DNA of 64,000 nucleotides from Paenibacillus swuensis (GTDB lineage Bacteria; Bacillota; Bacilli; Paenibacillales; DY6), in NCBI RefSeq assembly GCF_001644605.1, contig NZ_CP011388.1:768501-832500 (forward strand). Reading direction: 5' to 3'. Shown here piece by piece: positions 35,296 to 36,684 of the stretch. The notes under the pieces were generated by a model. That model did no database searches, was not told the origin of the DNA, and saw nothing but the letters and a program-made list of their open reading frames with translations. Both the position numbers and the translations under genes were made by a program. The stretch's first letter is position 1. Every line of letters starts with the position of its first letter.

Positions 35296-36405
35296 CTAGA
35301 GAACCCCAATCTCAGAGGATGTCTCTGAATCGGAATTTTCAGATGCGAGCGGTTCTGTTGCCGCATTGCGCTGAAGCTTCCGCCGAGCCAACTCGTCATT
35401 TTGAAGCTCATCCAGCTCCGTGGCGCCCGGAGGGCAATCGAGAATGAGGATGCCCTCTTGGTCATTCCGGGACCGATAATACTTCAAGTATGCTTTCCCT
35501 TGATTAATCGCCATAATCTCCATTTTGCCGGATCGATGATTAATGGAAAGACGTACCCCTTTGCCGGAACCTACAGTCCGATACTTGGCCTCTTCCACGA
35601 TCTGATACACTTCCTCCAGCGGAAGTACAAACTCGTGATTTCCCTTGACCTGCCGGTTGACGAAGAAGTCGTAAGGGGTTACTCCCGCGCCGGACAGCTT
35701 ATCTAATAATTCTGCCAGTACAACGGGATCATCATTGACACCCTTAAGAATCGGAGTTTGGTTGTTGAGAATAACCCCCGCGTCATGTAGCGCCCGGAAA
35801 GCCCGGATCGCGTCCGTTGTAAGCTCCCGCGGGTGATTTACATGATTGGAGATGTAAATTCGTTGCTCCGGCGTGGAGAAATCATGAAGCGTGTACAGAA
35901 GCTCCATATCCTCCGAAATTCGCTTCGGATTGAACGACGTCATCTTCGTGCGCAGACGAATCACATGCACATGCTTCATGTCGCGCAGACGGCTAAGCAG
36001 CTGGTGCAACCGTTCCGTGGCAGGTCTGAAGCTGTCCGCGCCCGTAATAATGACGCTGTTGATTTCCGTATTCGCTGCGATATATTTCAATCCAGGTAAC
36101 GTCTCTGCTCCGCAATCCTCTGTGATACTCAATAATGCCGTGGTTCGATAAATCACCATGCAGCCCGGCGCCTGTTCCAGGCTGTATCCCTTCGCATCCA
36201 TCATCCCGTATTCGGACAGGATCTCGCTAGGCGTAACTAACAGCTTGCGGATCGGGTCCTTCGGGTCTTCCCACTGAATCAGATTTACATAGTAGTCGTT
36301 TAACCTGTAACTAAACTTATCTTGAATCTTTCGGAGCTGTTCCTTGTCCGGTTCGGGAATCATCGTGTAATTGTCGAAATTTGTTATCCTTTTCACCTCA
36401 GCCAT
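35296..36405 (-). CDS. Lysine-2,3-aminomutase (KamA/AblA)-like protein with incomplete radical-SAM motif
   Basis: 369 residues, start ATG behind AAGGAGGC. The order of blocks matches KamA: KLLVTPSE, ALLSITEDC at residues 90-98, SVIITGADSF (SAM-binding GGD region altered), HVIRLRTKM, SNHVNHPRELTTDAIRA, GVILNNQTPILKGVNDDP, and RSGKMEI where KamA has its PLP lysine loop. The CxxxCxxC motif that holds the 4Fe-4S cluster is reduced to C98; the next two cysteines are missing in all frames of this region, so it is not a sequencing frameshift. The protein is either a pseudoenzyme or uses another chemistry. It lies behind a c-di-AMP riboswitch, 66 nt past its terminator. Confidence 0.72.
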   Translation of the reverse strand: MAEVKRITNFDNYTMIPEPDKEQLRKIQDKFSYRLNDYYVNLIQWEDPKDPIRKLLVTPSEILSEYGMMDAKGYSLEQAPGCMVIYRTTALLSITEDCGAETLPGLKYIAANTEINSVIITGADSFRPATERLHQLLSRLRDMKHVHVIRLRTKMTSFNPKRISEDMELLYTLHDFSTPEQRIYISNHVNHPRELTTDAIRAFRALHDAGVILNNQTPILKGVNDDPVVLAELLDKLSGAGVTPYDFFVNRQVKGNHEFVLPLEEVYQIVEEAKYRTVGSGKGVRLSINHRSGKMEIMAINQGKAYLKYYRSRNDQEGILILDCPPGATELDELQNDELARRKLQRNAATEPLASENSDSETSSEIGVL

Positions 36406-36468
36406 AAGGCAAGCCTCCTTCTGTTCTGGATTCGATCTATGTTCACGCGTACGGGTCGTTTCAAACGC

Positions 36469-36493
36469 AAAAAGACCCTTAAAACAAGGGTCT
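36469..36493 (-). terminator. Intrinsic terminator of the c-di-AMP riboswitch expression platform
   Basis: Minus strand AGACCCTT-GTTTT-AAGGGTCT followed by TTTTT. It lies 31 nt after the aptamer and 64 nt before the KamA-like start, where binding of c-di-AMP would be expected to favour termination. Confidence 0.85.
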
Positions 36494-36523
36494 CGGAGTT
36501 CAACTAAACATTAATCAGACCCA

Positions 36524-36652
36524 TCTACTGCTGACGAGGTTAGCTGACGGACTCGGGTAAGATGGTACCCTACATTCAGGTCATGAATGATTCGCCCCAC
36601 GTAATGGTTCCCCCGCTCTTCATGATCCATCGGACCAGAGATTAAGCGTATG
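36524..36652 (-). ncRNA. c-di-AMP riboswitch (ydaO/yuaA class)
   Basis: On the minus strand the conserved blocks occur in the right order: GCTTAATC, GAGCGGGGGAACCA, GTGGGGCGAATC, GTAGGGTACCATCTTACCCGA, then GTCAGCTAACCTCGTCAGC. This is the ydaO/yuaA pattern that binds cyclic di-AMP. An own promoter lies upstream and an intrinsic terminator downstream. It controls the KamA-like gene. Open frames crossing it on both strands are spurious. Confidence 0.88.
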
Positions 36653-36655
36653 TTT

Positions 36656-36684
36656 ATATTAGAACGAATGGAATAGTATGTCAA
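36656..36684 (-). promoter_or_regulatory. SigA promoter of the riboswitch transcript
   Basis: Minus strand TTGACA (36679-36684), 17-bp spacer, TAATAT (36656-36661): a near-consensus promoter located just after the stop of the upstream AraC gene. Confidence 0.85.

Follow-up and report, generated by a model that had tools for sequence, protein, structure and literature searches.

The closest described systems are lysine 2,3-aminomutase (LAM; AblA/KamA) and glutamate 2,3-aminomutase (Eam). The Dehalobacter ablA gene is preceded by a c-di-AMP riboswitch paired in tandem with one for Na+, and Na+ riboswitches precede eam; the explanation given is that beta-lysine and beta-glutamate are osmoprotectants (PMC9337991). 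The window analysed here, the whole 64,000-nucleotide stretch of the Paenibacillus swuensis chromosome, holds a KamA-like gene behind a c-di-AMP riboswitch, and its protein has lost the radical-SAM cluster loop. With a probability of roughly 0.6, this gene is a retained but, for radical chemistry, dead member of an uncharacterised Paenibacillales KamA clade, is controlled by c-di-AMP, and now acts non-radically, probably via its C-terminal half; there are no expression, binding or activity data.

35296..36405, minus strand: KamA-like open reading frame without the radical-SAM cluster loop, 369 aa (TIGR00238, 140.9 bits against a cut-off of 199.2; Pfam Radical_SAM, 21.3 bits against a cut-off of 29.5).

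The nearest NCBIfam model is TIGR00238 (KamA family radical SAM protein), whose cut-off is not reached, and the gathering threshold of Pfam Radical_SAM (PF04055) is likewise not met. The protein also falls short of the equivalogs for lysine 2,3-aminomutase (AblA; 117 bits, cut-off 525.4), the EF-P beta-lysylation protein EpmB (109.5 bits, cut-off 369.3) and Eam (TIGR04368; 137.5 bits, cut-off 650), the last of which is missed by the intact clade as well (226 bits for the intact homologue L006). In particular, the substrate aspartate pair expected of AblA is absent, the positions of LAM Asp293 and Asp330 being Arg and Ile, and neither motif criterion of a radical SAM enzyme is satisfied, as CxxxCxxC is reduced to one Cys by a 20-residue deletion and the GGD-type motif reads TGAD. 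Membership of the KamA family by descent is met despite the low score, through 51-59% identity to intact members and a structural match to LAM 2a5h, the single sequence relative of the protein in the PDB. The AlphaFold2 model, for which the window protein was combined with 53 orthologues, reaches a mean pLDDT of 77.8 and a pTM of 0.79; its top PDB match is 2a5h, with a VIA Z of 27.9 and 300 residues superposed at 3.2 A (runner-up Z 12.9). The KamA fold is predicted by this model to persist, which supports the inference of an earlier note, made from the letters alone, that the cluster site was lost and the fold retained.

36105..36114, minus strand: Cys98-Gly-Ala, followed by the deletion junction; between codons 100 and 101 the window protein lacks 20 residues that every intact relative has.
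36034..36045, minus strand: TGAD (T121-G-A-D124), replacing the invariant SAM-binding TGGD, by alignment.
35524..35535, minus strand: RSGK, residues 291-294, by alignment; Lys294 is the counterpart of Lys337, the PLP lysine of LAM.

Aligned with 29 KamA-like proteins of the same order (Paenibacillales), the window protein is collinear with its relatives apart from one 20-residue gap right after Cys98-Gly-Ala. In every intact Paenibacillales relative the second and third cluster cysteines lie in the missing block, YCRYCFRKRLFRNDVKEAxS, which has been removed cleanly and in frame; the junction reads CGA-YCRYCFRKRLFRNDVKEAMS-DVEPGL in relatives versus CGA-ETLPGL in the window. The earlier note had described a cluster block with its first Cys only, a TGAD in place of the GGD block and a retained RSGK, and all three are borne out: Cys98 is kept (codon 36114-36112) and followed by GAETLPG, the "98" in the motif as first written being a position number, and RSGK is read from 35535 to 35524. 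That account is refined in one respect, as the lesion is a deletion and not a set of substitutions. Its exclusion of a frameshift also stands: the other two minus frames, rechecked, have no Cys at the block, and the decisive argument is that both flanks are in frame around the gap when compared with every intact homologue.

Also lost with the gap is the residue equivalent to LAM Arg134, the substrate-carboxylate Arg. The only cysteines of the protein are C82, C98 and C324; of these, C82 and C324 occur without exception in intact relatives and lie far from the cluster loop in sequence. Because these two are family-wide, they are not substitutes and there is no replacement triplet; an alternative triplet at the cluster site, which would have refuted the earlier note, does not appear in the alignment. 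Across 53 intact relatives, 215 sites show conservation of 95% or more; the window protein retains 139 of them, has changed 62 and lacks 14 through deletion. The QHK before the cluster strand, invariant in intact relatives (the LAM His111/Arg112 region), has become MVI, and the residues at two positions close to PLP, Lys85 and His84, have been lost. Lys294 of RSGK survives, as do the HxNHP block and the Asn-Gln (NQ) block. Lost residues show only a suggestive, non-significant tendency to lie on the active-site face of the barrel (Fisher P = 0.09 within the barrel and 0.34 overall).

36514..36658, minus strand: c-di-AMP riboswitch aptamer (ydaO/yuaA leader, RF00379), 82.9 bits against a gathering threshold of 38.
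36656..36684, minus strand: sigma-A-type promoter, TTGACA-17-TAATAT, just before the aptamer, with 10/12 consensus positions.
36472..36494, minus strand: intrinsic terminator after the aptamer (GAGACCCTTGTTTTAAGGGTCTT-TTT), assigned by placement.
36414..36420, minus strand: Shine-Dalgarno sequence AAGGAGG, 8 nt before the ATG, assigned by sequence.

The aptamer score and the terminator together meet the criterion for a c-di-AMP riboswitch regulon member, namely RF00379 above the gathering threshold in the 5′ leader plus an expression platform. Counts alone would not identify the promoter (2 such sites in the region versus 1.9 expected by chance) or the terminator (1 versus 1.6 expected), and the argument for both is placement; the GGGTCTTTT element of the terminator is found again in other leaders. 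Overall, the gene has kept a complete promoter-riboswitch-terminator-RBS unit, for which ligand-binding and switching data are lacking. The P. swuensis genome has eight c-di-AMP riboswitches. Besides that of the window gene, they include a tandem pair before kdpA and further ones before genes for cell-wall hydrolases, namely an RpfB-like protein, an SCP/CAP-LysM protein and NlpC/P60 proteins, with gene families judged by eye; this is a classical c-di-AMP regulon. The tandem pair before kdpA (L192 and L193; G000:C1:2793661-2794216) is near-identical, and a third, divergent riboswitch lies within 1.2 kb.

Across the family, RF00379 is found upstream and on the same strand in 18 of 18 cluster-defective genes (the window gene and 17 others) and before 25 of the 35 intact genes tested (14/20 and 11/15); the intact genes without it belong mainly to a phosphonate-cluster clade and to Bacillaceae. 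The former is an intact sub-clade (L046, L048, L049 and L050), for the most part without the riboswitch, in putative phosphonate clusters, whose neighbours, by eye, are PEP-mutase-like, phosphonopyruvate-decarboxylase-like, aminotransferase and ATP-grasp-like proteins. In five Bacillaceae loci (L100, L132, L143, L147 and L151), the intact KamA-like gene adjoins a glutamate-1-semialdehyde aminomutase-like aminotransferase, an RpiR-type regulator and a transporter, also by eye, which is a hint at the substrate class. One further intact KamA-like ORF (L060; G095:C29) contains two exact repeats of internal segments, each some tens of residues long, and the second copy in that genome (L059) is frameshifted; both oddities are possibly assembly artefacts.

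In a sample of 392 Paenibacillales genomes, the KamA homologues of at least 17 genomes besides that of the window have a cluster loop damaged by deletion, rewriting or disruption. One group, six species of a single genus, has lost about 30 residues and all three Cys with them (ALLSVSHA-AEGLAYI); in L167, just the segment around the cysteines is missing, about 8 residues; in L074, the loss of two residues leaves CxCxxC; in L067, L068, L069, L071, L163 and L164, both the loop and the PLP lysine are gone and the same riboswitch is kept; and in L055-L057, the entire N-terminal half has disappeared. The lesions are not nested, as the window keeps the CGA that is absent in L167, and L167 keeps RSRALRGDPDEALS, the rest of the loop, which is absent in the window; it is argued from this that the deletions themselves were independent. 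Phylogenetic trees group the cluster-less proteins (84 SH-aLRT; 90/92 in a second tree), all on long branches, and for that reason the tree does not decide between one and several origins of the functional change. Only one change, I223V, is strongly shared among the cluster-less proteins.

Several of these loci have features of their own. The CYCRYC motif of L074 (G187:C46:44500-49000), which has a c-di-AMP riboswitch, is possibly an early step of cluster loss. The remnants in L055, L056 and L057, from three species, are 214-218 aa long and consist of the first six residues joined to the C-terminal half; they adjoin an MFS transporter and a cupin gene in a conserved gene order, again with a c-di-AMP riboswitch. 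At L163, L164 and L167, the cluster-less KamA gene lies near SHMT, PspA and DUF4178 genes, and a ZTP riboswitch (RF01750) is found within a few kb of it.

Where species can be compared, the cluster-less sister genes are retained by purifying selection, as judged from their sequences: dN/dS is 0.07-0.18 in the six-species group, which occupies a conserved locus beside thiamine genes, and 0.13-0.21 in three other cluster-less comparisons. The genus and family of the window lineage hold one genome only, and a search of genome contigs by 8-mer patterns found no close relatives with the same deletion; selection on the window gene is inferred, not measured by dN/dS. When three intact genes were left to decay neutrally in a simulation until they reached the identity observed, 4-6 stops accumulated on average and only 0.1-0.7% of runs had no stop (P 0.001-0.007); further, the window gene differs from its relatives by 0.33/0.22/0.62 at the three codon positions, far from equal. 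The gene is probably retained, an inference for which selection is shown only in sister groups. As for the status of a pseudoenzyme, loss of the catalytic motif is shown, and selection is shown for sister groups but only inferred for the window gene. No conserved protein neighbours common to the window locus and its relatives were found, and the genomic contexts of the intact genes are scattered.

The earlier note had suggested either a pseudoenzyme or a regulatory derivative. A search for a complete second kamA in the P. swuensis genome, a single contig of 5.01 Mb with 99.97% estimated completeness and 17 other radical-SAM matches, found none. Because there is no intact KamA partner, a regulatory derivative of a KamA enzyme is unlikely in this genome; the pseudoenzyme reading gains support from the same absence, from the evidence against neutral decay, and from selection on the sister cluster-less proteins.

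A gene in decay, which lost catalysis recently in the window lineage and of which the ORF and riboswitch are leftovers, would be consistent with the very long branch of the protein, the loss or deletion of 76 of the 215 strongly conserved sites, and the lack of a close relative in which to test it; however, the ORF has neither the stops expected under neutrality nor a frameshift, its codon positions have diverged unequally, its promoter, aptamer, terminator and Shine-Dalgarno sequence are all present, and its cluster-less sisters are under purifying selection, which together make decay unlikely. That the deletion is merely a sequencing or assembly error can be set aside almost completely, although the exact lesion is seen in a single genome only, since that genome is a highly complete single contig, many further diverged residues occur along with the deletion, and lesions of the same kind are present in other genomes.

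Two other explanations would leave the protein an enzyme. The RSGK lysine and the NQ block, kept in both the window protein and the six-species group, could serve a PLP enzyme with non-radical chemistry via Lys294, such as racemisation or transamination; yet the QHK that is invariant in intact relatives is MVI in the window, and the six loci that lost the lysine are still under the same riboswitch, so that this explanation too is improbable. Since the PLP lysine has disappeared from several relatives under riboswitch control, PLP is unlikely to have a role common to the group, and with Lys85 and His84 also lost in the window protein, shared PLP binding is doubtful. Continued radical-SAM catalysis with other cluster ligands could draw on one canonical Cys and on three Cys in all, but C82 and C324 are family-wide and distant, the loop is gone, GGD is altered and the substrate-Arg position is deleted; such an enzyme is very hard to credit.

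The best reading remains that a former beta-amino-acid aminomutase is now a non-radical protein of the c-di-AMP osmotic and K+ regulon. The inferred ancestor is a 2,3-aminomutase under c-di-AMP control whose product was a beta-amino-acid osmolyte, one resembling beta-glutamate and not beta-lysine, with the substrate guessed from the alignment. Radical activity would then have been lost in the window lineage and in several others, and the riboswitch and fold would have stayed. The window protein may still be made at low c-di-AMP, under K+ limitation or osmotic stress, which is likewise inferred, and its non-radical action would most likely be small-ligand or partner binding by the C-terminal half (residues ~155-338), the part kept by every cluster-defective relative. 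Within it, every cluster-defective form compared retains 56-84% of the conserved clade-specific sites of segment 283-312, and the figure for LAM is 20%; in the cluster segment, residues 81-100, the cluster-defective forms keep 0-63% of conserved sites. This conservation, together with 214-aa forms that have only the C-terminal half, indicates that the retained function is probably located there.

More tentatively, and with less than even confidence, Paenibacillales may have repeatedly converted a radical-SAM aminomutase under c-di-AMP control into an effector or sensor without radical chemistry, adding a new protein to the osmotic and K+ response; its C-terminal function would require no cluster, no SAM and, in some lineages, no PLP. 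The cluster is what normally defines a radical-SAM protein, and a KamA group that has lost it in several ways separates a catalytic from a non-catalytic role; varied cluster loss combined with a kept fold, purifying selection and one riboswitch points to an unrecognised effector of c-di-AMP and osmotic physiology. The literature searched contained no account of a comparable KamA or radical-SAM pseudoenzyme, which does not prove that none has been described. In addition, some Paenibacillales proteins annotated as "KamA family radical SAM protein" are incapable of radical enzymology.

Among known systems, LAM (2a5h) resembles the window protein in its fold (Z 27.9), in its HxNHP, NQ and PLP-Lys blocks, and in the control of ablA by c-di-AMP and Na+ riboswitches (PMC9337991), with a c-di-AMP riboswitch at the window gene too. 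Unlike LAM, the window protein has neither cluster Cys2 nor Cys3, and its Arg134 position is deleted; Asp293 and Asp330 had already been replaced (Arg/Met) in the intact clade. Eam is the best-scoring equivalog for the clade, and an Arg at the Asp293 position would fit an acidic substrate, as for Eam, though the window protein has no cluster site and scores far under the Eam cut-off. From the Arg/Met replacements, the best score for Eam and the riboswitches before ablA and eam, the ancestor was plausibly a c-di-AMP-controlled synthase of a beta-amino-acid osmolyte. The intact, uncharacterised orthologues of Paenibacillus, Cohnella and Thermobacillus (for example, L075 and L078) are of equal length outside the loop, share the C-terminal GKAYLKY...DCP region and mostly the c-di-AMP riboswitch, and differ in having CxxxCxxC, TGGD and the QHK block. 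The cluster-defective homologues of the 17 other Paenibacillales genomes share with the window the loss or disruption of the loop, the c-di-AMP riboswitch and the C-terminal region; they differ from it in their lesions and, in many cases, in having also lost the PLP lysine that the window protein keeps.
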